Assembly: GCA_001898935.1 (NCBI GenBank)
Contig: MKVT01000014.1
Location: 124,001 to 188,000, forward strand
DNA: 64,000 nt
Reading direction: 5' to 3'
From: Paludibacter sp. 47-17
Lineage (GTDB): Bacteria; Bacteroidota; Bacteroidia; Bacteroidales; Paludibacteraceae
Positions 31,367-48,819 of the stretch are shown piece after piece. A program made the translations under genes and the position numbers. The notes under the pieces are model-generated. The model was not told the origin of the DNA. It was given only the letters and a program-made list of their open reading frames with translations, and did not search any database. The first letter of the stretch is position 1; the number at the start of each line of letters is the position of its first letter.

Positions 31367-31978
31367 CTAAATCAACTTTTCTTCAATCGCCATTTTAACC
31401 AACACCGCCGTATTTTTTGCGCCCAATTTAAGCAGCAGGTTTTTACGGTACCCGTTGACGGTTTCTACACCGAGACACATTTTATCGGCAATTTCAGGAT
31501 TTGTGTACCCATCCACGATGAGCTTCAGGAGTTCTTTTTCCCGCGGGGTGAGCCACACGGGGTTTAGTGTGCGTTTTCGCATCAGCATATCGATTTCCTC
31601 CGACAGAAACCGTCCGCCTTCCACGACCGTTTCAATACTCAGGAGGATTTCATCGGGCATGGCATTTTTGAGCAGATAGCCGTCGGCTCCGCTTTCGAGC
31701 ATTCGGCGAACAAGTGCATATTCTCCGAAACTGGTCAGCGCTATTATCTTGATTTCGGGATTGTGCAATTTTATCTCCCTGCACAAATCGATTCCATTGG
31801 CATCGGGCAGGTTTATATCGAGAAATACCACATCGGGAGTTGCACGATGCAGGTAATGCAGGCATGCCTTTCCCGTAAGCGCCGTATGGCAAACCTCGGC
31901 GAAGCCAGAGTCGTCGACCAGTTTCTTCAACCCGTCGGCCAGGATAAGATGATCATCAACGATAAGAACCTGTATCAT
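31367..31978 (-). CDS. NarL/FixJ-family response regulator
   Basis: A 203-residue regulator with a CheY-like receiver (1-120: acidic pocket Asp8/Asp9, phospho-acceptor Asp54 in VVFLDINLPD, conserved Lys in YLLKNAMPDE). A LuxR-type helix-turn-helix occupies about 140-203 (LTPREKELLKLIVDGYTNPEIADKMCLGVETVNGYRKNLLLKLGAKN). It starts 6 nt after the sensor kinase and is its cognate partner. The divergent operon of giant surface proteins is the obvious candidate target, an inference from position. Confidence 0.92.
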   Translation of the reverse strand: MIQVLIVDDHLILADGLKKLVDDSGFAEVCHTALTGKACLHYLHRATPDVVFLDINLPDANGIDLCREIKLHNPEIKIIALTSFGEYALVRRMLESGADGYLLKNAMPDEILLSIETVVEGGRFLSEEIDMLMRKRTLNPVWLTPREKELLKLIVDGYTNPEIADKMCLGVETVNGYRKNLLLKLGAKNTAVLVKMAIEEKLI

Positions 31979-31984
31979 AATGGG

Positions 31985-33874
31985 CTAAATTTTAATCTCC
32001 ACGCTTATTTCCGTTCCTTCGTTTTCCTTGGAACAGATATTCATAGTTCCACTGAACGACACTACTCTGTTTTGGATGTTTTTCAATCCCATCCCCAAGG
32101 TTTTCGCTTTCGTATCAAAGCCTTTTCCGTTGTCCTGCACCGTAACCGAGATACGGGAAGGTTCCTGAACCAACTGCACATTTATTTCATCGGCATCAGC
32201 ATGCTTGAGGGCATTATTCACCAGTTCCATGACAATGCGGTAGATCATTACCTCACGTTTCGACTCCAAACGGGTTTCTGTTCCGAAATAATGGAAATTT
32301 ACATTCGGCAAACTATGGCATAAATCGGCTATGGCGGTTTTTAATCCGTAACGCGATAAGGCTTCGGGCATCATATTGTGCGAAATTCTACGCAGCTCCC
32401 GTATGGAATTATCCAACATTTTCAACACGTTGTTGAACCGCAAAATATCGTCGGACTCAAGTAAGGTTCCTTTTTTCATGTCGAACAGGTTTAATTTTAC
32501 CGCAGAGAGCATTCCGCCGAGACCGTCGTGCAGGTCGCGTGCAAGCCGCGAACGCTCGGCGGTTTCCCCGTCGAGTACGGCTTGCGTAGCCACCAGTTGT
32601 TTTTCCTGTTCGAGCCGGATTATTTTTTGCTCGGCAAGTTGCTTTTTTGTCCTAATATTTCTATGGCGGAAGTACAACGAAACGATGAGTGCCAATAACA
32701 AAACGCATATGACCATCCCGACGAACAGGTACAAGCTCTTTTCCTGTTGCAATGCAACAATTTTCAATTCCTTTTCGTCCACTTCATAAGCGGTCCGGAT
32801 CATTTCCACCTGACGTAAAGAACTCTCGTTCAGAACGCTGTCTTCGTATAGTTTGAATTTTCGTTCGGCAGCCAACGCGGCGCTCCAGTTGCCCTGTTTT
32901 TCATACATATCGGCAAGCCCTTTGTACGCACGGGCGATATTCCGCATTATTCCGCTGGCCTCGGCAACACTTAAAGCTTCTTTATAATTTTTCTCGGCCA
33001 GCGGGAAGTTGTCGATATGTTGATATACGTCGGCCACATTACAATAATTGGGAGCTATGTACTTCCTGTCGGCAATTTCCAGGTTCATTGCCAGCGCTTT
33101 TTGATAGTACTCCAACGCCTGGTCCCATCGATTGCGCTTTTTCGCCACGTTTCCCATGGAATTATACGCGATGGCTATCCCATTTTTATCGTTCCAGCCT
33201 TCGCTGTAGAAAAGATTTTTTTCGTAGTGCACCTGCGCCGAATCCAATTGGTTTTTTGCCTCAAAAACTCTTCCGATGCAACCGTGGCAAATCGAAAGCC
33301 CCTGATAATTATTTCGTTTTCTATCGATAAGCAACGATTGTTGAAAATAGTTCATGGCTTCATCGTATCGCTGAAGGGATAAATACACATTCCCGATATT
33401 GTTGAGCGCCGAGGCGGTTTCTTTTTCGTTTTGCAGTTTTTCGGCCAGAGGCAAGGCGCGAAACAAATATTCCAGCGCCGTGGGATAAACTTCCAGACGG
33501 CGGTAGAGAACTCCCAGATTCTGATTGGAGCGCAGCATCCAATAATCGGAGTTGTGTTGTTCCGATAACGTGAGGCATTCCTTATGGTAGCGAAGCGACG
33601 CCGGATAATTGGAAAAATTTCGCTCCATCACACCCAATTGATCCAACGCATGCATCATCCCTTCAGTATATTTCAGCTCCCTTGCTTTCTCAAGCGCCTT
33701 CACGGCAAATAATTTCAGTTCTTTTTTGTAAATCGTTACCTGCAAAACCGAATCAACCTGTTGTTTTGAAACAGGCGGAGAAAGCAAGGAATCGAGATGT
33801 TGTGCCTTTACTGCAAGGCAGATCATCAGAAATGCCCATACGACGCCGGTTTTTCTTTTCGCATTGCTTACCAT
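31985..33874 (-). CDS. TPR-containing sensor histidine kinase (HisKA_3)
   Basis: A 629-residue membrane sensor kinase. A signal peptide at about 1-25 leads to a periplasmic array of TPR repeats (about 40-375; for example ASALNNIGNVYLSLQRYDEAMNYFQQSL). One transmembrane helix (about 385-410) is followed by a coiled coil with charged residues and a HisKA_3 domain with His449 in RLARDLHDGLGG. The HATPase domain ends with GKGFDTKAKTLGMGLKNIQNRV. The ATG at 33874 (MVSNAK) is preferred over an upstream TTG. This architecture is typical of Bacteroidota kinases that read periplasmic signals through protein-protein contact. It is divergent from the three-gene surface protein operon. Confidence 0.92.
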   Translation of the reverse strand: MVSNAKRKTGVVWAFLMICLAVKAQHLDSLLSPPVSKQQVDSVLQVTIYKKELKLFAVKALEKARELKYTEGMMHALDQLGVMERNFSNYPASLRYHKECLTLSEQHNSDYWMLRSNQNLGVLYRRLEVYPTALEYLFRALPLAEKLQNEKETASALNNIGNVYLSLQRYDEAMNYFQQSLLIDRKRNNYQGLSICHGCIGRVFEAKNQLDSAQVHYEKNLFYSEGWNDKNGIAIAYNSMGNVAKKRNRWDQALEYYQKALAMNLEIADRKYIAPNYCNVADVYQHIDNFPLAEKNYKEALSVAEASGIMRNIARAYKGLADMYEKQGNWSAALAAERKFKLYEDSVLNESSLRQVEMIRTAYEVDEKELKIVALQQEKSLYLFVGMVICVLLLALIVSLYFRHRNIRTKKQLAEQKIIRLEQEKQLVATQAVLDGETAERSRLARDLHDGLGGMLSAVKLNLFDMKKGTLLESDDILRFNNVLKMLDNSIRELRRISHNMMPEALSRYGLKTAIADLCHSLPNVNFHYFGTETRLESKREVMIYRIVMELVNNALKHADADEINVQLVQEPSRISVTVQDNGKGFDTKAKTLGMGLKNIQNRVVSFSGTMNICSKENEGTEISVEIKI

Positions 33875-34234
33875 GGATTGAAAATTATTATTTCTCAAAA
33901 ATACGCATATTTTTTCAATGCAAATTTACTCCCAGAAAGAATTCTAAAAAACCCCCTTTTAGGGGTATCGCATAGAAAATTACAAAGATAACTTTGCAAT
34001 ATAAACTGCTAACAATCAAACGAACCAATGGTATGGAGACAATTTAACGCTCAATATTGTATTCAATCTGTATTTTTTAACCAAATCCGGACTTGAAAAT
34101 AAAAACTATTAGATGTTAAAATCTGTTTTATTGTATAGAGTTTTTATATCCCGGCTTCTTCAGGCGTGAAGAAGAAAAACAGCACAGGCGACGACTAGTC
34201 ATCAATCATCCATAAACTTAATCACTAATTGGTC
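33875..34234. other. Divergent 360-bp regulatory region of the two-component system and surface operon
   Basis: No gene is seen. Minus-strand -7 boxes are TAAATTTG (33928-33921) and TATCTTTG (33990-33983). The latter overlaps a plus-strand TAACTTTG (33989-33996), so the two form the near-palindrome CAAAGATAACTTTG. Further right, an inverted repeat lies at 34155-34174. A CCCC-TTTTA-GGGG-type short hairpin lies near 33953-33965. If the 33989 box is used, the surface operon has a leader of over 200 nt. Confidence 0.5.
34155..34174. promoter_or_regulatory. Inverted repeat in the leader of the surface protein operon
   Basis: CTTCTTCA (34155-34162), GGCG, TGAAGAAG (34167-34174): perfect 8-bp arms with a 4-nt spacer, 61 nt before the first surface gene. 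It could be a dimeric NarL-type regulator site, or a stable hairpin in the leader RNA. Confidence 0.5.
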
Positions 34235-37200
34235 ATGAAAAAAACACATTTACTTCTTTTTGTGCTCAGCTTCAGCGGCATCGTAACGGCCCAACTGAGC
34301 AAGACAGTCGACATTACCGCAGGAGGACTCAGTGCAGCGCTTACCTCCAGTGAAAAAGCAACGGTTACCGAGTTAATTATAACCGGCTCCATGAATTCAA
34401 ACGATTTTTATCAGATCCGCAATTACATGCCGCTTCTTAACAAGCTCGACATGTCGGCTGTGAGCGTAGCCAACCGTGTTATTAACAGCAGCGCTTTCGA
34501 ATCCAAAACTTCATTGGTGGAGGTAGTACTGCCCAGCAATTTAAAATCGATTGACGAATACGCTTTTTACAATTGCAACAACCTTAAATCGATCAATTTA
34601 CCCGACAGTCTGGAGCTTATCAAATACTCCGCTTTTTATCAGTGTTACGAGCTGAGCACCAACCTGGTGATTCCTCCGAAAGTCCGATCCATCGACAATT
34701 ACGCTTTCTACAAGTGCTCCAAACTAAGTTCGCTTGTTTTGCCCGACTCGTTGCGAACACTGGGTTCCTATGCTTTTCAGGAATGCGGATTGCTCAGCGG
34801 CCAACTGGTAATTCCTGCCTATGTAACATCGATGGGATACAACACTTTTTACGGAACCAATTACACAACGGCCAAACTATTGACACTCACCCCTCCGTCC
34901 ATCTACACAGGAGGATCGTTCAGCATGGGTCCCATCGCAATATTTTACGTTTTGCCGGAAGCAAAAACGGCATTCCGCAACGACACCAAGTGGAATCCTT
35001 ACATTATAATCGGCGGAGATATGCCGGTCAAGGTGACAGTCGATTTAACCACCGCGGGTACTCTGGGCGAAATGGTACTGCAACAGGTCGAGTACCTGAA
35101 AGACGTAAATGAACTCACGGTATCGGGCCTTATGAACGCTACCGATATGACCTTGCTGAAAAACAATTTTCCCGATTTGATAAGTCTGGATCTGAAGCAT
35201 ACCAATGTTACCGACATTCCAAATGGGCAGTTCCAGTTCCGTTATTACCTGCGTACTGTCGTGCTTCCCGATAGTTTACTGACCATGGGAACCTCGGTGT
35301 TTTACCAGTGTTACGACCTTCAGGAAATCGAAATTCCGAAGAAAGTGAAAATCCTTAACAATTACGCCTTTTACGAATGTAACCAATTAAGAAAAATCGT
35401 CCTCCCACCCACTTTAACCCATATCGGGAACCAGGCATTCGACGCCAATCATGCGCTTACCGATTTGATCCTGCCCGATTCTCTGGTCGAACTGGCCAAC
35501 TATGCATTCAGGGATTGCCGTCAACTCGACTCATTGATAATCCCTCCAAAAATCACGACGATCAACTATGCCAGCTTCGACGGGTGCACCCAACTCAAGT
35601 ATGTGACCTTTCCCGACAAACTCACCACCATCCGGAACTATGCTTTTCAGTCGTGCCCCATCGACACCCTGATCTTTCCCACGACCCTTCAAACCATCGA
35701 AGGATACGCCTTCCAGTTCAATCCGGGGTTAAAGCACATACTTTGCCAGCAACCTACTCCACCCGTGTTGAGTACCGATCCGTTTAATCATGTTGTAAAA
35801 ACCGTATGTACCCTCGAAGTGCCTTTCTGGTCGATGAACATGTACAAACAGTCGCCCGTATGGACCAACTTTGCCACGGTAATACCCTTCAATAAAGAAT
35901 TAAAAGAAATTCCGGTCAGCGGTCCGCTGGCCCTGGTCAATAATGTACGCCCCACCGGCTTCCCGAACATTACTATTCTGAGCAACGGAAGTCTGACGGT
36001 GGGCGGCAACACCCCATTTTCTACCGACCGGTTTATAATGGAAGGCAGGTACAATTCGGGTGTATTCGGAAATCTGATCAACGATTGCCCGGCCATGTCG
36101 GCCAACTCGGTAATGGTAAAACTGGATGTGAACGGAAATAAATGGTATTTTCTGAGTTTCCCCTTCGACCTAAAAGTATCCGATATCGGCACCTCAAACA
36201 ATGCTTTGTTGGCCATCCGCAGTTACGACGGGGCCGCACGTGCCCTGAACGGCACCGGTGGCAGCTGGAAAACAATGACACCCGACAGCACCCTAAAAGC
36301 CGGTAAAGGCTATATTATTAACGCCAACGCCACTACCACCTTACTGTTACCGGCAACATCGGCATCGCGGAACCAACTCTTCGGCAACGAAGAAAAAAGT
36401 GTGCCCCTGTCGACCTATGCCACCGAAGTAACAGCGAACAAAAACTGGAATTTTATCGGTAATGTTTATCCTTCGTATTTCGATTCGCGTTATCTCGACT
36501 TTACGGCTCCGATTACGGTATGGAACCTGAACAACAACACCTACACCGCCATATCGCTTACCGACGATAAATACGCCATTAAACCTTTCGAGGGGTTTTT
36601 CGTACAAAAACCGGAAGATATTTCGAATATGACCTTCCTCAAGGGAGGACGACAGCTCACTTCGGTACTATCGGCCGGCGGCCCTGCCGGTGCGCCTCAC
36701 AGAATACCGGCCAACAGCAACCGTAAGTTGGTCGACCTGCTGATCAGCAACTCCCAGCTTAGCGATCAAACGCGAATCGTTTTCAATCCCGAAGCCTTTA
36801 TGGAATATGAGATGGAAAGAGATGCGTCGAAATTTTTCAGCAACGATCCGTCGGTTCCCCAGTTGTATAGCCTCGACGATAGCAACAACTACTATGCAAT
36901 CAACGAACGCCCATCGTCGCAAGGATGGGTAAAACTGGGCTACAGGGCCGGAACCGACGGCAATTATCGGATTAAAAAGGCTGAAAACAGCTCTTCCGAT
37001 ATCCTTCAGCTCATGCTGGAAGATCGACTTACGTCGGCTTCGGTAGATCTGACACAGAGCGACTATTCGTTCTACAGCCCGAACGGCACATTCGACCACC
37101 GGTTTATTCTGCGCATTACTTCGCTGGCAACCAGCACACAACAACCGACAGCAACCGAATTAATACGCGGAGCGGAAGGTAAAATCTACATTTTTGCACC

Positions 37201-37348
37201 CGAAGGAACTCTTTATACTATATACTCGCTCAACGGAATGTTGATTCGTACCGTTGCCGTTGGCAGCACTGCTACCGAAATTCCGGTTCCATCGGGCATC
37301 TACTTTGTTCGCAGCAATGCCGAAATCCATAAGATCGTTGTATTTTAA
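34235..37348 (+). CDS. BspA-type leucine-rich repeat surface protein with T9SS tail
   Basis: A 1037-residue secreted protein; the ATG at 34235 (MKKTHLLLF) gives a signal peptide ending at TAQ. Two arrays of BspA/TpLRR-type repeats (LRR_5), at about 80-245 and 325-520, show the repeating pattern I-x2-Y-A-F-x2-C-x2-L-x3-x-L-P-x-S/K-L. Each array is preceded by a short L-x2-L-D-M/L segment. Residues about 560-870 are a beta-rich region with YFLSFPFDL and GKGYIINANA, as seen in other Bacteroidales surface proteins. The last 65 residues (IYSLNGMLIRTVAVGS..SGIYFVRS) are a type A Por sorting tail. BspA repeats mediate adhesion in Tannerella and Treponema. It is first of three genes separated by 10 and 7 nt. 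Confidence 0.85.
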   Translation: MKKTHLLLFVLSFSGIVTAQLSKTVDITAGGLSAALTSSEKATVTELIITGSMNSNDFYQIRNYMPLLNKLDMSAVSVANRVINSSAFESKTSLVEVVLPSNLKSIDEYAFYNCNNLKSINLPDSLELIKYSAFYQCYELSTNLVIPPKVRSIDNYAFYKCSKLSSLVLPDSLRTLGSYAFQECGLLSGQLVIPAYVTSMGYNTFYGTNYTTAKLLTLTPPSIYTGGSFSMGPIAIFYVLPEAKTAFRNDTKWNPYIIIGGDMPVKVTVDLTTAGTLGEMVLQQVEYLKDVNELTVSGLMNATDMTLLKNNFPDLISLDLKHTNVTDIPNGQFQFRYYLRTVVLPDSLLTMGTSVFYQCYDLQEIEIPKKVKILNNYAFYECNQLRKIVLPPTLTHIGNQAFDANHALTDLILPDSLVELANYAFRDCRQLDSLIIPPKITTINYASFDGCTQLKYVTFPDKLTTIRNYAFQSCPIDTLIFPTTLQTIEGYAFQFNPGLKHILCQQPTPPVLSTDPFNHVVKTVCTLEVPFWSMNMYKQSPVWTNFATVIPFNKELKEIPVSGPLALVNNVRPTGFPNITILSNGSLTVGGNTPFSTDRFIMEGRYNSGVFGNLINDCPAMSANSVMVKLDVNGNKWYFLSFPFDLKVSDIGTSNNALLAIRSYDGAARALNGTGGSWKTMTPDSTLKAGKGYIINANATTTLLLPATSASRNQLFGNEEKSVPLSTYATEVTANKNWNFIGNVYPSYFDSRYLDFTAPITVWNLNNNTYTAISLTDDKYAIKPFEGFFVQKPEDISNMTFLKGGRQLTSVLSAGGPAGAPHRIPANSNRKLVDLLISNSQLSDQTRIVFNPEAFMEYEMERDASKFFSNDPSVPQLYSLDDSNNYYAINERPSSQGWVKLGYRAGTDGNYRIKKAENSSSDILQLMLEDRLTSASVDLTQSDYSFYSPNGTFDHRFILRITSLATSTQQPTATELIRGAEGKIYIFAPEGTLYTIYSLNGMLIRTVAVGSTATEIPVPSGIYFVRSNAEIHKIVVF

Positions 37349-37358
37349 TCCCCCGGTT

Positions 37359-40300
37359 ATGAATAAAATTCAATCTTACCTGCTGCATATTCTGTTGATT
37401 TTGTGCCTTCAGCCTTCATTGACGGCCCAGAACGCAACCGAATACAATCCGGGGAATCCGCCAGAACCCGAGAATTTGTTCAGCCTGGAACTCCGGATGA
37501 ACAACAACTCGGCGGGCTATACCTCCGGTAGCGGCAATTATCCTGCAGGTAAATCGGTCAGGATAATTGCATCCGTATATTCAGGATATCAATTTATTGC
37601 CTGGTGCGAAGGCGATTCGGTGATTTCCACCTCACGCAACTTCGATTACATAATGCCTTCGAGGAAAGTAAACCTTACGGCGCATTTCAGGTATACCCCT
37701 TCCAATCCGGGGGAACCGGCCAATAAATATACTCTGAAATTAATGGCCGAACCGGAAGGATCGGGATACTTCTCCAACGACAACCTGTTTTATGAACCGG
37801 GCACCCACTACTCCGTATATGCTTATCCGCATTCGGGCTATGTATTTAAAGGCTGGTACAGGGACCATACGCTCGTGTCGCCGTCGACCCCCTATGCGTA
37901 CACCACCGGTTATGCCAACGACACCCTCCTCGCCCGGTTCGAATACCTTCCCGGCAATCCCGGCGAACCGGCTACCGGAACAGGATCGCTCTACAATCTG
38001 AGCTTACTGACCCCGGCATCCGAAAAAGGGAAAACCATTGCTTTCCCGGTGCATTTATTCAACCGGGATACCGAAATCTTCGCCACGACCTTCGATCTCC
38101 AGTTTCCGCAAGGAGCATTGATCGACCTGGCCAATGCCAGCTTGTCGGGCCGTAAAGACGGACATACGCTCAGTACCGAGGTATTGAACGACAGCACTTA
38201 CCGTTTTGCAATAACCGGCCCCGACGCGAGAGCGCTTACCGGCTCCTCGGGAATTCTGGTCACTATCCCGGTCACTATTCCGCAGGAATGGGAAATCGAC
38301 ACAACCTACCCGGTCGTACTCGCGAATGCAACCGTTCGTACCGCCGGCGGCACCGTCAACTGCCCCGTCAAGCCGGGCGGTATACGGGTTCTTTCGGAGG
38401 AAGGCGCATTGTTTGCCAGTTTTTACCCCGACATCTACCTCAACAGGGCGCATTTTGTTAACCTCTCCTCGCCCCTGGCCGAAACCTACCGCTGGGATTT
38501 TGGCGACGGAACCGGTTCGACTGAAAAAAGTCCGTTGCACAGCTATGAAACCGGCGGACCGTACACGGTGCGCTTATGGGTGGCACAAGGGACTCAGACT
38601 GATTCGGCACAATTCAATATTGTTGTTACCGATAAGCTTCATTGGAGAATATCGGGTAATTTCAGTTTGAATACGACCCTAGTGGATGTCCGTAATTTCA
38701 GATCGGCCGATGAACTGTTCACGCTGTTTTCGCAAGCGGGCATTGCCGGCCCCTCGAATATTCGGGTAGCCAACGGCCAGTCGCATGCGCTGGAGATCCC
38801 CCTTTCGATGAAAGACAAACTGACCGTATTGTGTCAAAAACTGAAACAAACGGGACATAGTATTACTTTCAGCGCAACCGATCCGGCGCAACAGCCCGTA
38901 GTGGACTTTAAAAACACCATCGATCAGGAAGTTCTCGATTTGCTGATCGACCTGTGGAATTACCTGCCTGCCGACAATGTAAAATTCGCCCTGCAGGGCG
39001 TTGAAATGAACAGTACGGCCATCCGGAGTTTCCGTTCGCAGCAGTTGTGTTCGGGAAATGCATCGCAGGCACTCGATTTTTCGGGCATCAATCCGGCGCT
39101 TACCTACAGCTGGAAGCGGATTTCCGAACCAGTAAGCAGTGAAGGATACCTCACCGAAGGGCAACAAATTTTACCGTCGATGACGCTTATCAATCCTACC
39201 GAGGCTCCCGACACGCTGATCTATGAAGTGAATACCAGTATTCCGGGAACAACGTTTACCAAATTGCTGACGCTGAAACTGATTGTACTGCCGTTATTAT
39301 CGGGCCCCCCGGTTGTTGAATTGCCGGCAGCCGGCAGCAAACAGGCATCGACTACGGTGAAGTTTGCCTGGTCGACCGTTCACAATGCCATTTACGATTT
39401 ATACATCTGGGAAGAAAACACCGCTCCGCCGGCGGTACCTGCTTTCAGTGGCATCAGCGTCAACAACTTTACCAATTCGAGCTTCTGCAAATACGGTACC
39501 ACCTACCACTGGAAGGTGGTAGCCAGAGGCACGTGCGATAGCCGAAGCAGTACGACCGGCAGTTTCAGCATTCGCACCTTACCCGACCTGCAGGTTGTTT
39601 CCATTCAGCATCCCGCCGATTTGTACCCGGGCGATGAGGTAACCGTGCGTGTAACCATTCAGAACAAAGGCGGAACAACTCCTGTGAACAGCTATTGGAG
39701 AGATGAAATAGCGCTCAGCAGAAATGAAAACCTGGAAGGCATATTGTCGCTCAACTCGGTGTACGGTTATCGTACCGTACTCAGCGACAGCAGTTACTCG
39801 GTGAATATCCGTTTTATATTGCCCCTCGACACCATCCCCTATTCACGGTTTGTAGTCAGAACCGACCTCAACAACCAATTGCTCGAAAGTGACGAAACCA
39901 ACAATGTGTTTGTCAGTCAACCGATCCATATTATTCAACCGCGCATCGAGCCGGGCGATTACAACCGGTTGCGGGCATTTTATCAGCAAACCGGAGGTGC
40001 CGGCTGGAAAAAGAAGTGGAATATAAATTCGGATGTTATTATCGCCGCCAACTGGCCGGGCGTAAGTTTTTACCGGGGTCGTGTATCGGCGATTAACCTC
40101 AACAGCAACAACCTTACCGGCACGTTGCCGGGTAGCGTTTTCGGATTTAGCAAGATGAAACGGCTCGAATTGTACGACAACCAACTCACCGGCAATCTGA
40201 CTTCGATCAACGACAGTGTGAAGAATATGCTTCAGCCGGCCGACAGCCTGAATTACCTGAATATGGGTAAAAACCGGCTGAGTGGCGAGTTATCGGCATT

Positions 40301-41501
40301 TGCTGCCGCGTTTCCGTTGCTCACCTATCTGAATTTGTCGGAAAACCGGTTGAGTCAGGAACAGGCTTTGTCGTCGGCTATCAATCAGCTCAATTTGCAA
40401 TACCAGCAGGTAACGATCGATTCGATGGATATGGCACCCTATCCGGTATTCGACACTTTGCCTATGATTTGCCGGTACAACCACAGCAATCGTAGCTTTA
40501 CATTCCAGCCGGGTTTCTCTATCCTGCACCAAAACAATACGGTAGGATACATCAGTTTCTCGGGCAACCGGTACAACTTGTCGTGGAACAACACCACCGG
40601 CTGGCGCATTCCTTCGGGAGAAGCCCTGGAAATAATGCAACACAACGGGACGGCCTATGGAGCTCGATCGCCTTTCAAACTGTTTTTCCTCCATGGTGAT
40701 GCCAATGTCGACCGGCGGATCGACCTGCTGGATGTACAACACAGTTTGAATTTCGTATTGCGAAACAGTCCGACTTTATTCAACTACGCAGCCGCCAATA
40801 CCTTCGGCGACGATCAGCTCAACGTTCAGGACATTGTTACCACCGTTGAAATGATACTGGCCATCGACAGTATTGAGGATCAGCCGGCAGGCAGCTGGCG
40901 CGCGCCGGAGGCAGCTCCCAATCAACTCTACATTGAAAACAACAACCTGATGCTGCGCACTATTGCACCTGTAGCAGCACTCGATGTCGGCTTAAACGAT
41001 GCCAGCAGTCGTGCATTTACCTTCCTTGCCGATACCCGAAAATTTCAGTACCGTACACGGGATAATGGAAGGGGCGGAATGCGCCTGATTGTGTTTTCGC
41101 CCGACGGCAGCGAGTTTGCACCCGGAACGCTGCGTATTGGAAAATTCGAAGGTACAGTACCCTCTATCCGGAAGCTCATGCTTTCCGACCGGTATGCCAC
41201 CGAACTTCCGGCAAGCATCGGAGTACCGGTTACTTCGACCGACGCAACCACAACCGGTCAGTTCCAGCTACAGCACTTACCCGGAAAATTAATCATCCGG
41301 ATTCCCGAAGGGCTTGTACCGCTCGAAGTTAAGTTGATTACCATGCAGGGAATAGTGGTTCGGCAAGAAGCCGCCGGCACGCGTGCCGATATCACCCTGG
41401 ACCTGGGAAATGAATTGCCTGCAGGAATATACCTGTTGCAGATTCACAACGGTAAAGACACAAGCAAGCCATGGCATTTCAAGGTATTAATTACAAAGTA
41501 G
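37359..41501 (+). CDS. Multidomain surface protein with cohesin-like, PKD, CARDB, LRR and dockerin-like modules and T9SS tail
   Basis: A 1380-residue exported protein starting MNKIQSYLLH, signal peptide to about 24. Visible order: two divergent InlB-type B repeats (about 40-111 and 124-195; YQFIAWCEGD, YVFKGWYRDH), a cohesin-like jelly-roll (211-335; FDLQFPQGA), and a PKD domain (348-426; YRWDFGDGT). An unassigned stretch follows, then an FN3-like domain (650-743) and CARDB (742-860; LPDLQVVSI, DETNNVF). Next come plant-type LRRs (865-1020; NNLTGTLPGSVFG). A dockerin-like pair of calcium loops lies at about 1112-1169 (GDANVDRRIDLLD; NTFGDDQLNVQD). A Por-type tail ends it (AGIYLLQIHNG). No catalytic domain was recognised. 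It is co-transcribed with the LRR gene before and the 2436-residue gene after. Confidence 0.8.
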   Translation: MNKIQSYLLHILLILCLQPSLTAQNATEYNPGNPPEPENLFSLELRMNNNSAGYTSGSGNYPAGKSVRIIASVYSGYQFIAWCEGDSVISTSRNFDYIMPSRKVNLTAHFRYTPSNPGEPANKYTLKLMAEPEGSGYFSNDNLFYEPGTHYSVYAYPHSGYVFKGWYRDHTLVSPSTPYAYTTGYANDTLLARFEYLPGNPGEPATGTGSLYNLSLLTPASEKGKTIAFPVHLFNRDTEIFATTFDLQFPQGALIDLANASLSGRKDGHTLSTEVLNDSTYRFAITGPDARALTGSSGILVTIPVTIPQEWEIDTTYPVVLANATVRTAGGTVNCPVKPGGIRVLSEEGALFASFYPDIYLNRAHFVNLSSPLAETYRWDFGDGTGSTEKSPLHSYETGGPYTVRLWVAQGTQTDSAQFNIVVTDKLHWRISGNFSLNTTLVDVRNFRSADELFTLFSQAGIAGPSNIRVANGQSHALEIPLSMKDKLTVLCQKLKQTGHSITFSATDPAQQPVVDFKNTIDQEVLDLLIDLWNYLPADNVKFALQGVEMNSTAIRSFRSQQLCSGNASQALDFSGINPALTYSWKRISEPVSSEGYLTEGQQILPSMTLINPTEAPDTLIYEVNTSIPGTTFTKLLTLKLIVLPLLSGPPVVELPAAGSKQASTTVKFAWSTVHNAIYDLYIWEENTAPPAVPAFSGISVNNFTNSSFCKYGTTYHWKVVARGTCDSRSSTTGSFSIRTLPDLQVVSIQHPADLYPGDEVTVRVTIQNKGGTTPVNSYWRDEIALSRNENLEGILSLNSVYGYRTVLSDSSYSVNIRFILPLDTIPYSRFVVRTDLNNQLLESDETNNVFVSQPIHIIQPRIEPGDYNRLRAFYQQTGGAGWKKKWNINSDVIIAANWPGVSFYRGRVSAINLNSNNLTGTLPGSVFGFSKMKRLELYDNQLTGNLTSINDSVKNMLQPADSLNYLNMGKNRLSGELSAFAAAFPLLTYLNLSENRLSQEQALSSAINQLNLQYQQVTIDSMDMAPYPVFDTLPMICRYNHSNRSFTFQPGFSILHQNNTVGYISFSGNRYNLSWNNTTGWRIPSGEALEIMQHNGTAYGARSPFKLFFLHGDANVDRRIDLLDVQHSLNFVLRNSPTLFNYAAANTFGDDQLNVQDIVTTVEMILAIDSIEDQPAGSWRAPEAAPNQLYIENNNLMLRTIAPVAALDVGLNDASSRAFTFLADTRKFQYRTRDNGRGGMRLIVFSPDGSEFAPGTLRIGKFEGTVPSIRKLMLSDRYATELPASIGVPVTSTDATTTGQFQLQHLPGKLIIRIPEGLVPLEVKLITMQGIVVRQEAAGTRADITLDLGNELPAGIYLLQIHNGKDTSKPWHFKVLITK

Positions 41502-41508
41502 ACGTAGT

Positions 41509-44500
41509 ATGAAGACAAGATTAATATATATAGCGATCTTGCTTCTGGCCGCTGTTCAGGTGGCCGAAGCACAACAGGAAAACATACTGCTGTTGCCCTC
41601 TCTGCAAAGTGGCGCCGGCCGCGAAGCCGGCATAACGGTGCAAATGAACAACACAGCAGAAATTGTGGCCGTACAATTCGAAATACAGTTCCCCCGCGGT
41701 TTCCGATTATCGGACACTACGGCCATACAGTTATCCGACCGGAAATCGAATCATACCGTATCGGCCAGGTACCTGGGTAACTTCCAGTATCTGTTCGTGA
41801 TTTTTTCAACCACCAACCAACTATTGATGGGCAATTCGGGAAATCTGGTCCGTATCCCGGTTGTAGTTCCCGACACCTGTACGGCAGGTATCCAACATGC
41901 GTTCGCGTTCCGGAATATTATTATCGCCGGTAAAAGCGGCGAGAATATAGCTACCGGCTCGCAGGGCGGCACGTTGGAAGTAATCGTGAGTCCGCGCCCC
42001 GACGTTCGGGTTCAACACATCACCATTGCCGGAACCTCGGCATCGCCGGGCGACAAAGTGGTTGTTTCGTGGCAGGTAGCCAATATAGGCGATTTAGGGA
42101 CCAGCGGCGGCTGGAGCGAACAGGTATCGTTGGTGAGCGCCACCGGCGAGAGTTCCCACCTGGGCACCACCTATTATCCGGAGTGGCTCCGGCCTTCCGA
42201 AGGGGTACTGCGCCAGGCCGAGTTTTCGCTTCCCGATTATCCGGGAGTCGACGGGCCGGTACAAGCGCGCGTCAAACTGATTCCCAACAAAACCCTGGGC
42301 GAATTGCCGGCAGCCGCTTCGAACAATACGGCAGTTTCGACCGGCACAATCCTGATCAATAAACAGCTCACCCTGAAACAAAACAGAACCCATATCCCCG
42401 AAAACGATGCGGGATACGTGCAGTATCAGTTGTTGCGAAGCGGTAGCCGCAGTACCCGTGAAGCTTTTGCAATTACCACCGACAAACCCGAACGGATACA
42501 ATTGCCCGATTCGGTAGTGCTTACAACCGGTAATTCGGGGGCTGTTTTTTACGGCAGGCCTACCGACAACGATCAGATGAATATGGATTCGGTAATTACC
42601 GTGTTTGTTGCCGGCAACAACTACGATCCGGTAAACAGCAAACTCACCATTGTCGACAATGAAGTCCCCGGGCTCAGCCTCAGCTCTACCGCACAAGAAC
42701 TGACCGAAGGCGATTCGATCGTGCTCACTGTTTCCCGGCAGCTGGTCACCGCTCAACCTTTACCGGTAAGTCTGCAGACCAATTATCCGAAACGGTTTGC
42801 TTTCGCTAAAGAAGTAACGATAGCTGCGAATGAAAAAACCGCTCAGGTAACCGTGAAAGCAATCGACGACAAACTTCCCGATCTCGACGTTGCCACCTAC
42901 TTCACAGCTTCCGGCCCATCGTACCAAAGTACCCGTTGCGACCTGATCCTGCACGACAATGACGTTCCTCCACTGGAACTGATAATTGGTCCCGACACGG
43001 TGAGCGAGTCGGCCGGCTTTCAGGCGGCAATGGGGATCGTCAGGCGTACCGGCCCGACCGATCAGACCGTATACGTACGCCTGACCGACAACTCATCGGG
43101 GATGTTGTATTACAACACTCCCACGGTAACCCTGCTCAAAGGGCAGACCGAAGCGCGGTTCACCATTGGAGTGGTCGACAACGCGCTGATGGAAGGCGAC
43201 AAGGGCATCGACATCACAGCTGCCGTATTTATCACCCATTGCAACTGTACCGTTGCACCCGAGAGCGCCGGCACTGTAAAGGGCCGGTTGATGGTGAGCG
43301 ACGACGACGGCCCCGCGCTGAAGATCGTTTCGTCGCAATCGATGCTTCCTGAAGGAAAAACGGCGGCAACCGTACTTACCGTTACCCGCAATACCCCGTC
43401 TGTTGCCGATTTGCCGGTTACACTGTCGAGCAATTTCGACTCACGGTTGGTTTATCCTAAATCCATCGTCATTCCGGCCGGACAATCGTCGGCCACCGCA
43501 AGTGTGGATGTACTGAGCAATAGTGTGCCCGAGGGCGACCAAATGGTCAGCTTTACAGCAGTGGCCGAGGGGTTCAGCAACGGATTCTGCTGGGCGATGA
43601 TATCGGATCAGACCTTGGCCGATGCTCAATTGACCATCGAACAGCTTTCGGCCGATACGATCGAGACAAAGGGTACTTTACGGATCAAAATGCGTGTCAC
43701 CAATTCAGGATCGGCAGTGCTTACCCCGGGTAAAGATGTCGATGTATATATTTCGGCCAGCGACCGGCCGGGAGCATCGCGTACGAAACTCGGAAATACA
43801 CTTACGCAGGCCGGCATCGCCCCGGGATCGTCGGACACGCTTAGCGTGAGCGTCAATCTCCCCGATATGACCGGATTACGCTATCTGCTGGCCGAGATTA
43901 ATGCCAACCAACAACAAAAGGAATTGAGTTTTCTCAACAATCTGTCGCCCGCGGCTCCCCTGGTCATGAATCCTTCGTACCAGGTGAGCATGTCGACCGA
44001 TAAAGATTCGTATAGAACCAACGATACGATTCTGTTTACCGGAAAGGCAAGCAATGGAACCGGCAGTGGAATTTCCAACGCCCTGGTCGAAATTTACCTG
44101 ATCGCACCGGGCGGACAACGCACTACTTTTACGGCTACCACCGATGCCGGGGGTAACTACGTGTACAAGCATGTTCCCACCTTGTCGACCCTGGGCCGGT
44201 TCAGTGCCGGAGCTTGTTATCCGGGCGAAGGACGTACAACCGGAATAAAAACGATCGACATACTGGGGCTCAAACGTGCCAGCAGCGCTTATATTGTATG
44301 GGAAGTGCTTACCAACGAGGAGTACACCGGCGAAATCGACATTATGAACCCCGGGGCCGGCGTACTTACGTCAGTCGAAACCACGGTCGAAACCACGGTG
44401 CCGGGCCTATCGCTTTCGTTCGATCCTATCGCTTCGATTGCTGCCGGCGCTACTGCCAAGCTCAGGTACCGGCTCACCGCAACACAGGCGAGCACTAAAA

Positions 44501-47500
44501 ACGACTACGATCGTATAAAGCTGATAACGCGTTCGGCGGAGGGAGCGTCGCTTGAAATGACCGGATATTATGTATCACAAAATCCGCGGGCGACCCTTAA
44601 AGCCGGGGTAAGTTCCATCAATACTACCATGACCAAGGGAGCGGTTCGTACCTACGATCTGTCGGTAACCAATACGGGCAAAGGCGAAAGCGGACCTATA
44701 ACTATAGCGCTTCCGCAAACCAGCTGGATGAGTTTGGTTTCGGCGTCGACTTTACCTTCGCTGAAAAGCGGGGAATCCACAACCATCGTGTTCCAGTTTG
44801 CTCCGGGAAACGATCTGGCGCTCAATGTTCCGGTCAACGGATCGATCGGGGTGAATTGTCAGAATGGCAGCGGATTCGCGTTGCCTTTCCGAATCGAACC
44901 CGTTTCCGAATCGACGGGAACGCTGGTTATTGATGCCTGCGATGAATATACCTATTATACCGACGAAGCTCCTCATGTGGCCGGAGCACAGGTGCGCATC
45001 AGGCATCCTTACACCAAAGCGCTCATCACCGAAGGAAAAACCGACGAACGGGGCTTATTCACCCTCGAAGGCTTACCCGAAGGCTACTATTTCGTGGAAG
45101 TCACTGCCGACCGGCACGATTCGTATTCCAACAACATCCTGATCGATCCGGGCAAAACCAATACCCTGGTAGTGAACCTTAGTTTCCAGGCCATCACCTA
45201 TACCTGGGAAGTGGTGGAAACAGAGGTGGAAGACGTTTACGAACTCGAAACCATTGTGAAATTCGAAACCAATGTGCCTACCCCGGTTATCGAGATGATT
45301 TCGCCCAAAGAAATCGATACCGAAAAACTGAGTATTGGCGAATCGCTGGTTTTCAATGTCGTGTTAACCAACAAAGGCCTGATTACGGCAAAAGATGTGG
45401 AAGTAGTGGTGCCCAGAGGTTTGAATTCGCTTACCTTCGAGCCGCTCTTCAACATGATCGAACTCAAACCGCACGAATCGGTCATGATCCCGGTAACGGT
45501 TACCAAAATCGGTAGTCCTTCCGGTGCTCCCCAACGAGCCATGGCTGCCGCCGATAATTGTAAGGAATATATTGCGGTCATCTACCTGTGGGACTGCGGA
45601 CTCGACCGTAAATGGCATCAATTTACGAAAGAAATAAGCCTGGGCACCTGGTGTTTTTCCAAATCGAGTCCGACCCCGCCTTCCAACTGGTCGGGCTACT
45701 CGCTCACCTTTGGTGGCTGGGGTGGCGGCTGGGGTGGCAACTACGGCGCCAGCTCGTCGCAAACCACACCCACTGTCAGCGTGGCCGATTGCGAACCCTG
45801 CCAGAACAGTTTTTTGTATAAGATGGCCAAGTGTTTCGTCACCCGTATTCCGATCGTCGAAAAGGTGCTGACTGTAATTGAAACGGCTGTTTGTGTTTAC
45901 GACGTTGCTGCCAATGGAGATTTAACCTGTATTGCCGAGAAAATAATCACTCAAAACGAATGGGTGGATAAAATCATCGGCTATAAAGATCTTTACGAGG
46001 ATTGTATCAAACCCATTCTGGAACCTTGCGAACCGGGCAACTTTGTCCGCCATTCGCCCGATGGCGTTGCACGTACCACGCAAAACATGCCGGCATTTAT
46101 TGCCCATTTCCAGGAAGTAATGCAACAGGTATACAGGATGTCGAATTCGTACGAAGCACAGCTTTTAGAAATCTTCGGCGATAGCGTGTGGATGCAACAA
46201 ACAGGAGGTGCATTGAACATTTTCTGGTCGCAATTGACTCAATACAGCGGCATGATTCCCGACGATGCTCCTTTGAAACAATTCCGTCCGGGGGGCGTTA
46301 CCGAAGCACAATACCTGCAATTCATTCATCGTTGGAATAATTCGTTAAATCCTTCGTACAGCGGAACCGACCGGATCAACTTCAACACGATCAATCAGCT
46401 GACGGCTGTTCAGGAAGATGCCAAGGCCTATGCCGGCGCCTTGGGGTACAGTTCGGTACGCGAAATGTTTGATAAGGAATATGCTATTTACGAACAGGAA
46501 GCCAGCGATAACTCAGGGAGCGTATGTGCAACCATTACGCTGAAGTTTTCGCAAACCATGACCATGACCCGTCAGGCATTCCGGGGCACGCTCACTGTTT
46601 TCAACGGGCACGAAACCGTTGCCATGAAAGAAGTGGAACTCGACCTGATCATCAAAGATGCCGGCGGAACGATAGCAACCAGCCACGAGTTCCAGGTGAA
46701 TACCGAGAAACTGGTGCAGGTAAACGCTATCGACGGTACGGGCATTATTAATCCGAAAGATACGGCCATTGCCACCATCCTGTTTATTCCCACGAAGTAT
46801 GCCGCTCCTACTGCTCCTCAGGAATATTCCTTCGGCGGAACCCTCGGGTATCTCGATCCGTTTACCGGTACAAAAGTAACCCGCGATTTGTATCCGGTGA
46901 CACTTACGGTGAAACCTTCGCCCGACCTGGTGCTGAACTACTTCATGCAACGCGATGTAATGGGCGACGATCCGCTTACTACCGATGTGGTGGAACCTTC
47001 GGAAGATGCCGAATTCACCCTGCTCATTGTGAATGAAGGCGCCGGCGATGCCACCAATGTCAGGATCAGCTCTAAACAGCCTGAAATTATCGATAATGAA
47101 AAGGGACTGCTCATCGACTTCGAAATCGTATCGTCGAGCCTCAACGGCGCAGAAAAGAATATTGGAATCACGAATATCGATTTCGGCAATATTCCATCGG
47201 GAGCGTCGTCGTACGGACAATGGTGGTTCCGGAGCTCCTTGCTGGGGCATTTCGTGGAATACGATACGAAAATCACGCATGTAACCAGCTACGATAATCC
47301 TGATCTTTCGTTGGTGAAAAGTTTAAACATCCACGAACTCATCAGCAGTATCGAAGTAACCCGCGACAACCGGAAACTCCGGGGATTTATGGCCAACGAT
47401 GTAGTCGACACCTACGATTACCCCGACAGGATGTATCTTTCCGATGGCAGCTCGGCAGAAATCAGCACCCAGAACACGGTTGAAGTGACGGATGCAGGAA

Positions 47501-48819
47501 GCAACCAAAAACGGCTCACCCTTACGCCTACGCAGGCCGGATGGAATTATGCCGTCGTTGCCGATCCGTACAACGGTCGTTCACGCCTCACGGAAGTGAA
47601 ACGGGAAGCCGACAACCTGATTCTGCCAGTGGGCAATTTCCGGCAAACAGCTTTAACCCTGCGCGACGGGAAAGATCCGGTTCATGAAAACAAGCTCCAC
47701 TTTATCGACGAAGTGGCGCTTGCCGGAGGCAGCTACCTTCTCAGCTTCGAGCCAAAACGCGAAAACATCCTGAAAGTAACCGGTTTTGGCAGTGTTCCGG
47801 TCGATATCAGTCCGTATCAGGTGAATCAGGTTGAAGTGGTGTTCAACCGCGCCATTCTCGATTCTACTTTTACACACGACGACATCGGTCTGAGCTGCCA
47901 GGGAATCAATCTGGATGTAAGCAAGGTAACCATCAGCCGGTTAAATTCCGTAACCTATCGCCTGCATCTCGACTCGGTAACCCATACCAACGGCTATTTC
48001 TACCTGACGGTGCACACCAACGGGATTAAAGACGACGAAGGCTATGCCGGGGAACTGGGGTTGAGTACCAGCTGGACGCAATTCCTCGACGACGCTGTGC
48101 AGGTATCGGTACAGGTTATTCCCGAAAATTCGGGTACCGTAAGCCCGCAAACCGGTGCGTACAACTATGGTGTGCCCGTGGTATTCAAAGCTACTGCAAA
48201 ACCGGGCTATCTGTTTAAACACTGGAGTATGGACAATGTAACTCTGGGCGCCGAAACGTCGCTTACTCATATACCGTTGGAAACCAAATTGATTCAAGCT
48301 CATTTCGAACTGAAAAAATACATGGTGGTGACGGCCTGCGACACAACGATGGGACAGCTCACCGGAAATGTTTCGGGAATTTACACGCATGGCAATACAT
48401 TGTACTTCGTTGCTTTGGCACGTACCGGCTTTGAGTTTACCGGGTGGAAAATCAACGGGACCTTTACGGCTTCGAAGGAAACCAATCTGGCCGTTGAGTT
48501 ATTGAACGACATCGCGATTGAACCTGTTTTCAAAAAGAAAGATGGCGCAACCGGTTTCACCGTACTCCCAACCGGTGAAATGAAGGTGTATCCCAATCCG
48601 GCAAGGAACGGAACCGAAGTTATACTGGTGTTGCCTGTGGACGAGTCGCAGCTCCGCGATGTGCGGGTACGGCTGATTTCGCTCACCGGAACCATACTGT
48701 ACGATGAAGTGCCTGCTCAGCAAGAATTGAAGTGGAATGGCCTGAGGGCCGGCATGTACATGATCCAGCTGTTGGCTCCGGGCAAACAATACCGGGTTCA
48801 AAAGCTATTGGTCAACTAA
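41509..48819 (+). CDS. Giant Calx-beta/CARDB/cohesin-like surface protein with Cys-rich insert and T9SS tail
   Basis: A 2436-residue secreted protein. The signal peptide (1-22) is followed by a cohesin-like domain (about 24-155; VAVQFEIQFPRGF) that parallels the one in the preceding gene. Next come CARDB (165-285), four Calx-beta repeats (about 287-385, 386-485, 486-600 and 601-705; motifs TEGDSIVLTVSR, LHDNDVPPL, SDDDGPAL), and CARDB again (704-822). Carboxypeptidase-regulatory-like domains lie near 824-930 and 1137-1225, with NEW3/DUF11-like segments between and after. A Gly-Trp run and ten cysteines fall between about 1349 and 1507, followed by a helical region. Near the end are two InlB-type repeats (LFKHWSMDN, FTGWKINGT) and a Por tail (MKVYPNPARNG..AGMYMIQLL). 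No enzyme active site was recognised. It is the last gene of the three-gene operon. Confidence 0.8.
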   Translation: MKTRLIYIAILLLAAVQVAEAQQENILLLPSLQSGAGREAGITVQMNNTAEIVAVQFEIQFPRGFRLSDTTAIQLSDRKSNHTVSARYLGNFQYLFVIFSTTNQLLMGNSGNLVRIPVVVPDTCTAGIQHAFAFRNIIIAGKSGENIATGSQGGTLEVIVSPRPDVRVQHITIAGTSASPGDKVVVSWQVANIGDLGTSGGWSEQVSLVSATGESSHLGTTYYPEWLRPSEGVLRQAEFSLPDYPGVDGPVQARVKLIPNKTLGELPAAASNNTAVSTGTILINKQLTLKQNRTHIPENDAGYVQYQLLRSGSRSTREAFAITTDKPERIQLPDSVVLTTGNSGAVFYGRPTDNDQMNMDSVITVFVAGNNYDPVNSKLTIVDNEVPGLSLSSTAQELTEGDSIVLTVSRQLVTAQPLPVSLQTNYPKRFAFAKEVTIAANEKTAQVTVKAIDDKLPDLDVATYFTASGPSYQSTRCDLILHDNDVPPLELIIGPDTVSESAGFQAAMGIVRRTGPTDQTVYVRLTDNSSGMLYYNTPTVTLLKGQTEARFTIGVVDNALMEGDKGIDITAAVFITHCNCTVAPESAGTVKGRLMVSDDDGPALKIVSSQSMLPEGKTAATVLTVTRNTPSVADLPVTLSSNFDSRLVYPKSIVIPAGQSSATASVDVLSNSVPEGDQMVSFTAVAEGFSNGFCWAMISDQTLADAQLTIEQLSADTIETKGTLRIKMRVTNSGSAVLTPGKDVDVYISASDRPGASRTKLGNTLTQAGIAPGSSDTLSVSVNLPDMTGLRYLLAEINANQQQKELSFLNNLSPAAPLVMNPSYQVSMSTDKDSYRTNDTILFTGKASNGTGSGISNALVEIYLIAPGGQRTTFTATTDAGGNYVYKHVPTLSTLGRFSAGACYPGEGRTTGIKTIDILGLKRASSAYIVWEVLTNEEYTGEIDIMNPGAGVLTSVETTVETTVPGLSLSFDPIASIAAGATAKLRYRLTATQASTKNDYDRIKLITRSAEGASLEMTGYYVSQNPRATLKAGVSSINTTMTKGAVRTYDLSVTNTGKGESGPITIALPQTSWMSLVSASTLPSLKSGESTTIVFQFAPGNDLALNVPVNGSIGVNCQNGSGFALPFRIEPVSESTGTLVIDACDEYTYYTDEAPHVAGAQVRIRHPYTKALITEGKTDERGLFTLEGLPEGYYFVEVTADRHDSYSNNILIDPGKTNTLVVNLSFQAITYTWEVVETEVEDVYELETIVKFETNVPTPVIEMISPKEIDTEKLSIGESLVFNVVLTNKGLITAKDVEVVVPRGLNSLTFEPLFNMIELKPHESVMIPVTVTKIGSPSGAPQRAMAAADNCKEYIAVIYLWDCGLDRKWHQFTKEISLGTWCFSKSSPTPPSNWSGYSLTFGGWGGGWGGNYGASSSQTTPTVSVADCEPCQNSFLYKMAKCFVTRIPIVEKVLTVIETAVCVYDVAANGDLTCIAEKIITQNEWVDKIIGYKDLYEDCIKPILEPCEPGNFVRHSPDGVARTTQNMPAFIAHFQEVMQQVYRMSNSYEAQLLEIFGDSVWMQQTGGALNIFWSQLTQYSGMIPDDAPLKQFRPGGVTEAQYLQFIHRWNNSLNPSYSGTDRINFNTINQLTAVQEDAKAYAGALGYSSVREMFDKEYAIYEQEASDNSGSVCATITLKFSQTMTMTRQAFRGTLTVFNGHETVAMKEVELDLIIKDAGGTIATSHEFQVNTEKLVQVNAIDGTGIINPKDTAIATILFIPTKYAAPTAPQEYSFGGTLGYLDPFTGTKVTRDLYPVTLTVKPSPDLVLNYFMQRDVMGDDPLTTDVVEPSEDAEFTLLIVNEGAGDATNVRISSKQPEIIDNEKGLLIDFEIVSSSLNGAEKNIGITNIDFGNIPSGASSYGQWWFRSSLLGHFVEYDTKITHVTSYDNPDLSLVKSLNIHELISSIEVTRDNRKLRGFMANDVVDTYDYPDRMYLSDGSSAEISTQNTVEVTDAGSNQKRLTLTPTQAGWNYAVVADPYNGRSRLTEVKREADNLILPVGNFRQTALTLRDGKDPVHENKLHFIDEVALAGGSYLLSFEPKRENILKVTGFGSVPVDISPYQVNQVEVVFNRAILDSTFTHDDIGLSCQGINLDVSKVTISRLNSVTYRLHLDSVTHTNGYFYLTVHTNGIKDDEGYAGELGLSTSWTQFLDDAVQVSVQVIPENSGTVSPQTGAYNYGVPVVFKATAKPGYLFKHWSMDNVTLGAETSLTHIPLETKLIQAHFELKKYMVVTACDTTMGQLTGNVSGIYTHGNTLYFVALARTGFEFTGWKINGTFTASKETNLAVELLNDIAIEPVFKKKDGATGFTVLPTGEMKVYPNPARNGTEVILVLPVDESQLRDVRVRLISLTGTILYDEVPAQQELKWNGLRAGMYMIQLLAPGKQYRVQKLLVN

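Follow-up and report, generated by a model that had tools for sequence, protein, structure and literature searches.

Analysis of a 64,000-nucleotide (nt) stretch of Paludibacter sp. 47-17 (GenBank assembly GCA_001898935.1, contig MKVT01000014.1, positions 124,001 to 188,000; hereafter the window) has led us to surmise that an operon of three genes, designated A, B and C, may encode a surface complex exported by the type IX secretion system (T9SS), with protein B docking on protein C and protein C framing an exchangeable module. We favor this reading tentatively, placing it somewhat short of evenly balanced. A first-pass annotation had described three closely spaced genes for 1037-, 1380- and 2436-residue modular surface proteins, which it took to be one co-secreted assembly; the open reading frame (ORF) coordinates (Table 1) bear out these sizes, the common strand and the gaps of 10 nt (A-B) and 7 nt (B-C), while the remaining observations were confirmed in part and the interpretation found partial support. 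As set out below, the unit of the operon appears to be the B-C pair, and its key part, judging from sequence comparison, is a conserved core in C belonging to a cross-phylum family that the first-pass annotation did not recognize.

Conservation along C is concentrated in two blocks, at approximately amino acids (aa) 1100-1300 and 1650-2200, which enclose a divergent region that we call the slot, and C is itself a member of the unnamed family defined by blocks 1 and 2 around such a slot. Over aa 1640-2080, no Pfam family matched more than one of seven members, and comparison with solved sequences returned nothing but one row at E 0.7. When C was searched against 149 relatives, 12 matched, with long matches in five genomes besides its own and weak ones in the others; a profile of aa 1640-2080 (A1) recognized six of the 149 relatives and three of 296 genomes in a phylum sample, its own genome included in both counts, indicating a patchy distribution. 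Scanning of the genome_contigs collection yielded 143 relatives of C, of which 79 loci were kept, among them Prevotella-type, Flavobacterium and Prolixibacteraceae records. The titles of these loci name Bacteroidota or its subgroups, except for one Erysipelotrichaceae contig and one Chlorobiota metagenome-assembled genome; the former is probably mis-binned, because a Paraprevotella locus has exactly the same sequence in the two blocks (L036 and L037). Tandem pairs of C-family ORFs were seen in L046, L053 and L068.

The content of the slot differs among family members. Counting the window and duplicates, 88 of 92 core ORFs have both anchors, with 132-830 residues between them, and four are without the first anchor. 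Across 48 aligned proteins the slot harbors conserved cysteine residues, and the mean for the most hydrophobic 19 residues exceeds 1.6 in the slot of 25 of the 48 vs. 0 of 48 in the rest of the core, the maximum in the slot of the window being 1.42; however, the alignment retained 48 of 59 sequences, and the picture of a Cys-rich slot comes from a biased sample since the 11 dropped include proteins with unusual slots (L031, L051, L093, L065 and L103). In L031, L051 and L093 the slot is occupied by an alpha/beta hydrolase (lipase-like) above the Pfam cut-offs (PGAP1, palmitoyl thioesterase and DUF676 models), with 29-31% mutual identity among the modules, and L073, which ends at a contig end, has a slot hydrolase as well. 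All four share the motif GHSMGG, and by eye each has an Asp and a His in the positions expected. The earlier statement that no enzyme is recognizable is thus upheld by Pfam for A, B and C, but not for these four relatives. Since the hydrolase label requires two changes on a quick tree of both blocks, forced by starred branches, the slot content has changed at least twice, via gain, loss or exchange; in this tree, loci not marked hydrolase were labelled helical without individual checks, L073 is not included and long branches are flagged.

The putative connection between B and C consists of a dockerin in B and a cohesin at the N-terminus of C. The dockerin of B aligns with those of 31 neighbors (alignment A6), where 23 of 32 rows match Dockerin_1 at E 0.01, and the A6 profile finds the solved dockerins 5nrk_B (4e-8) and 1ohz_B (1.8e-6); inspection by eye reveals a pair of F-hand-like calcium loops, of which the second has partly degenerated. 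Similarly, the Pfam Cohesin model matches 19 of 30 rows of alignment A7 at E 0.1, and the A7 profile finds the solved cohesin 5n5p_A (1.9e-6). Aside from the window rows, A6 and A7 include 31 and 28, respectively, of 41 loci having both domains. These data indicate that the cohesin and dockerin of this family are genuine members of known families, so that the earlier calls of cohesin-like and dockerin-like modules hold for the family, though with a shortfall for the window copies that we weigh below.

With regard to the proposed contact, the two domains track each other. In a comparison of the N-terminal cohesin of C with the dockerin of the upstream ORF, 41 rows had both, 24 neither, two the cohesin only and none the dockerin only. 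This count leaves out 21 core ORFs because nothing was found upstream of them to compare; four of the 41 rows are duplicate records (L022/L034, L023/L040, L024/L063 and L025/L072 being, to judge from their equal lengths, the same contigs twice), and in four of the 24 rows with neither domain (L044, L046, one of the two L053 rows and L068) the upstream ORF is a C-family ORF or a C fragment. Among the 41, the cohesin type of the window accounts for 36 rows and a second type, barely related to the first by hhalign, for five, with the upstream ORF being B-like in 36 of the 36 rows with the window's type. Both cohesin-only rows are fusions: in L070, a leucine-rich repeat (LRR) region and the dockerin lie within the C protein, and in L045, InlB-type repeats are joined to C. 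The B-C pair also occurs in Flavobacterium loci (L048, L054, L055, L057-L059 and L067); among the 149 relatives, B itself was found in its own genome and G083, with a partial match in G119.

Gene order points in the same direction. The order A-B-C stands on one contig in L022, L033 and L106 and can be deduced across contig ends in L030 with L117 and in L035 with L118 (the B part of the latter being InlB-type repeats only); L045 has A followed by the fused C, L031 has an LRR_5 array fused to C, and ten upstream ORFs have matches to A as well as to B. The B-like ORF upstream in 36 rows, the fusions among the three genes and the co-occurrence of cohesin and dockerin together make one co-exported assembly the best reading, but with modification. 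A search for the C-terminal half of A, covering 22 of the 79 C-family loci, disclosed relatives in 11 of the 22 genomes searched, one of which has eight matches on eight contigs. Because these relatives sit on eight different contigs of a single genome, A appears to be accessory to the B-C pair and to occur elsewhere as well. Homologs standing apart from their neighbors, which the first-pass annotation had named as contrary to a single assembly, thus exist for A, an objection that does not extend to B-C, and the three-gene order is kept on the three contigs named without confining A to that order.

With respect to the modules of the individual proteins, LRR_5 in A scores 262 bits vs. a cut-off of 27.7, placing its array among the BspA-type LRRs, whereas the LRR in B remains sub-threshold (21.8 and 18.5 bits, cut-off 27). 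Flg_new_2 (InlB-type), PKD and CARDB in B, and CARDB, CarboxypepD_reg, Flg_new_2 and Por_Secre_tail in C, surpass the Pfam cut-offs, in agreement with the InlB-type repeats, PKD and CARDB first described; a MG2-like stretch was also found in C. There was no Pfam match for the FN3 domain proposed in B, nor, up to E 0.1, for the Calx-beta domain proposed in C, the latter domain being found instead in a Nostoc relative.

Export of these proteins is plausible on several grounds: 1) A, B and C each start with a hydrophobic leader ending in ..AQ, as judged by eye, in accord with the signal peptides proposed earlier; 2) SprA, the component of the T9SS translocon that was searched, is present in the genome (4.18 Mb in 39 contigs) at 2810 bits vs. 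a cut-off of 200; 3) at E 0.001 the Por tail is matched 88 times in the genome, with the tail of C among the matches above the cut-off; 4) the type A sorting domain TIGR04183 passes its cut-off of 23 in C (30.7 bits). The Por-type tail claimed for each protein is therefore secure for C, while in A (17.7 bits) and B (18.5 bits) it lies below the cut-off at the right place. We infer that A and B are exported as well.

We propose that the three proteins assemble at the surface into one complex of several parts, after export through Sec followed by the type IX system. Protein C would serve as a long stalk, with its N-terminal cohesin taking the dockerin of B in a calcium-dependent manner as in cellulosomes, thereby attaching the LRR, InlB-type, PKD and CARDB modules of B to C, and A would supply a second LRR surface. 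The two-block core of C would frame the exchangeable central module, which is predicted to be Cys-rich and helical in the window, is an esterase-type hydrolase in some relatives and gives way to RHS repeats after block 1 in others. The complex might then recognize or adhere to a surface through the LRRs and present the content of the slot.

Genuine cohesins and dockerins raise the question of a cellulosome-like scaffold that collects dockerin-bearing enzymes on the surface. A whole-genome Pfam search at E 0.01 detected only two dockerin matches, one of them above the cut-off, and one cohesin match, which speaks against such a scaffold; the search overlooked the copies in B and C, so weak ones elsewhere may have been missed too. 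The only other protein found in this genome above both Pfam cut-offs, in L116:2584-5976 (minus strand, contig C21), is by eye GH31-like and has, close to its end, a dockerin immediately followed by a cohesin. While the presence of both domains in one GH31-like protein lends the idea some support, Pfam detected neither a cellulose-binding module nor an enzyme in any of the three proteins, and we consider a cellulosome very improbable.

Several observations weigh against docking of B on C as a part of one complex. The dockerin of B on its own has no Pfam match, and the cohesins of B and C in the window both score below the Pfam cut-off (Table 1); the sorting tails of A and B likewise fall short of the TIGR04183 cut-off. 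B carries a cohesin of its own (aa 218-335) and, after its dockerin, a region resembling a degenerate cohesin, so the dockerin may bind inside B. A cohesin was also detected in the upstream ORF in eight of the 41 dockerin-bearing rows (L022, L030, L034, L024, L025, L063, L072 and L105), and in 19 of the 24 rows with neither domain the upstream ORF has the second cohesin type and no dockerin was detected in it. The loci counted were also those used to seed and iterate the cohesin and dockerin models. Moreover, the quick tree for the pairing involves only two changes among three states, hence few independent events; for this reason the pairing is consistent with B-C docking without amounting to strong statistics. 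Finally, A-type proteins are found away from B and C, and the evidence from outside Bacteroidota comprises four plasmid records of three species.

A rival explanation is a plain adhesin or matrix cluster of three T9SS-exported adhesins acting separately, in which the dockerin of B would clamp onto a cohesin of the same protein and C would have a core serving as nothing but a structural stalk. The cohesin within B and the cohesins in the upstream ORFs, both with and without a dockerin, would fit an internal clamp, as would the adjoining dockerin and cohesin in the GH31-like enzyme of this genome; the LRR, InlB-type, PKD and CARDB modules are typical of adhesion, none of the three proteins has a Pfam enzyme, and the A-type homologs elsewhere would be in line with separate action. 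Against this explanation, an upstream dockerin in the 41 rows is never seen without the cohesin of C, the genes undergo fusion with each other, and in some relatives a hydrolase that keeps Ser, Asp and His has taken over the slot. We regard the adhesin explanation as a serious possibility, albeit a doubtful one, and retain the docked B-C complex as our working interpretation.

The C family, as judged from sequence matches, extends to plasmids of Cyanobacteriota and Pseudomonadota. In a plasmid collection, four records (Nostoc, Eleftheria and two of Methylomonas koyamae) matched the query from aa 1198 and aa 821-1344. In Nostoc, both blocks and a Cys-rich stretch lie within one giant protein, whereas in Methylomonas and Eleftheria block 2 starts right behind the leader of its own separate protein; block 1 is located upstream, followed in Methylomonas by 13 RHS-repeat stretches in the same protein and in Eleftheria by a next gene with 10 such stretches. 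The giant Nostoc protein (L112, Nostoc sp. TCL26-01 plasmid) has Calx-beta domains, and its C-terminus resembles by eye a subtilisin-type peptidase, with no subtilisin-type family among its Pfam rows. The RHS-repeat genes lie beside the block 1 and block 2 genes at L113:3-11888 and L114:1-10076, in Eleftheria terrae and Methylomonas koyamae; type II secretion-like genes come next in the Eleftheria terrae locus, and rhodanese-like and transglutaminase genes lie in between in that of Methylomonas koyamae.

A further explanation would make C a contact-dependent delivery device akin to RHS/teneurin-like polymorphic toxins, with the slot as payload and its Cys-rich hydrophobic helices being membrane-active. 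Nevertheless, no toxin domain was found, a scan of ten flanking proteins named no immunity family, the gene directly downstream of C being ferritin-like, and the slot in the window reaches a hydrophobic maximum of 1.42. The sorting tail at the end of C also sets it apart from toxins that carry their payload there. The resemblance of block 1 to the transthyretin-like domain and following FN-plug of teneurins is confined to a fold-level alignment to 8fia_A, one of many immunoglobulin-like rows; the sequence profile has no teneurin up to E 10. We find this explanation improbable. Membership among teneurin-like proteins was rejected, there being no shell: up to E 0.1, Pfam matched neither RHS nor NHL in C, and hence neither a YD-shell nor an NHL propeller. 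The TANFOR toxins were likewise set low, as up to E 0.1 none of the three proteins had a row for TIGR02542, the N-terminal TANFOR domain of PMC7073777, in an NCBIfam release whose inclusion of this model is unconfirmed.

A bolder extension of the docked B-C complex is that the family represents a previously undescribed cross-phylum device for surface delivery or display, built on a two-block frame (block 2 containing a new domain family) with an interchangeable payload (esterase, RHS repeats or Cys-rich helical module), and steered in Bacteroidota by LRR proteins that dock via cohesin-dockerin and travel by the T9SS route. We hold this to be unlikely. The proposed complex, for its part, would account for a group of giant surface proteins annotated as "hypothetical" in many Bacteroidota, delimit a conserved stretch of ~440 residues absent from Pfam, establish cohesin-dockerin as a connector between adjacent genes outside cellulosomes, and tie the C proteins of Bacteroidota, through the exchangeable slot, to RHS-bearing proteins of another phylum.

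Table 1. Coordinates within the window of the operon, its modules and the divergent regulatory genes
Feature	Position	Strand	Basis or remark
Gene A: leader, BspA-type LRR array (~aa 60-555), C-terminal region, weak T9SS tail (aa 988-1034)	34235..37348	+	LRR_5, TIGR04183
Gene B: leader, InlB-type repeats, cohesin, PKD, middle region, CARDB, weak LRR, dockerin, weak T9SS tail	37359..41501	+	
Cohesin-like domain in B (aa 218-335)	38010..38363	+	PF00963, E 1.3e-4, 22.7 bits, cut-off 24.1; row of alignment A7
Dockerin of B (aa 1113-1173)	40695..40877	+	Alignment A6; A6 profile matches solved dockerins
Gene C: giant stalk or carrier protein (putative), cross-phylum family	41509..48819	+	
N-terminal cohesin of C (aa 28-139)	41590..41925	+	PF00963, E 0.001, 19.7 bits, cut-off 24.1
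Block 1 of C (aa 1030-1340): CARDB/NEW3-like, CarboxypepD_reg (transthyretin-like), further beta domain	44596..45528	+	
Slot of C (aa 1341-1668): Gly-rich linker, conserved Cys, helical module, divergent sequence	45529..46512	+	
Block 2 of C (aa 1669-2198): conserved, beta-rich	46513..48102	+	
InlB-type repeats of C (aa 2200-2324)	48106..48480	+	PF18998, 58.6 bits
T9SS sorting tail of C (aa 2360-2435)	48586..48813	+	Por_Secre_tail and TIGR04183, above both cut-offs
LuxR-type response regulator	31367-31978	minus, divergent from operon	Scan of flanking proteins
Histidine kinase containing tetratricopeptide repeats	31985-33898	minus, divergent from operon	Scan of flanking proteins

As for the surroundings, one might guess that the divergent histidine kinase and LuxR-type regulator control the operon; a scan for sigma-70 sites gave no excess (15 observed vs. 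18.0 in shuffles). The GC content of the operon (34235-48819) is 0.51 vs. 0.475 in the remaining window, which, along with the patchy distribution of the C core among relatives, may hint at horizontal transfer.

Among known systems, TANFOR polymorphic toxins are large Bacteroidetes proteins proposed to use the T9SS, according to PMC7073777; C differs from them in having its variable part in the center rather than at the C-terminus, and no immunity-like gene was recognized. Bacterial teneurin-like proteins, as described in the accessible portion of PMC13018210, likewise are large, lie at the surface and combine adhesive modules with a transthyretin-like domain; in the Methylomonas relative of C such a domain is followed by RHS repeats, and the C protein of the window has neither an NHL nor an RHS match; the phyla given there for teneurin-like toxins number six, with Bacteroidota not listed. 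The part of PMC3482391 at hand makes no mention of cohesin, dockerin or CARDB, and none of the titles and abstract openings in our literature search dealt with this architecture. With cellulosomal and noncellulosomal cohesin-dockerin systems, the operon shares the same two families, the profiles matching solved examples, but here the partners are encoded by adjacent genes, carry T9SS-type tails and come without a cellulase, their binding being putative. Lastly, the leader, the LRR_5 array and the sorting tail (weak in A, clear in C) are shared with BspA-type LRR proteins and modular T9SS adhesins of Bacteroidota, from which the present system is set apart by its arrangement as an operon with a conserved partner pair and by a C core that lies outside Pfam.
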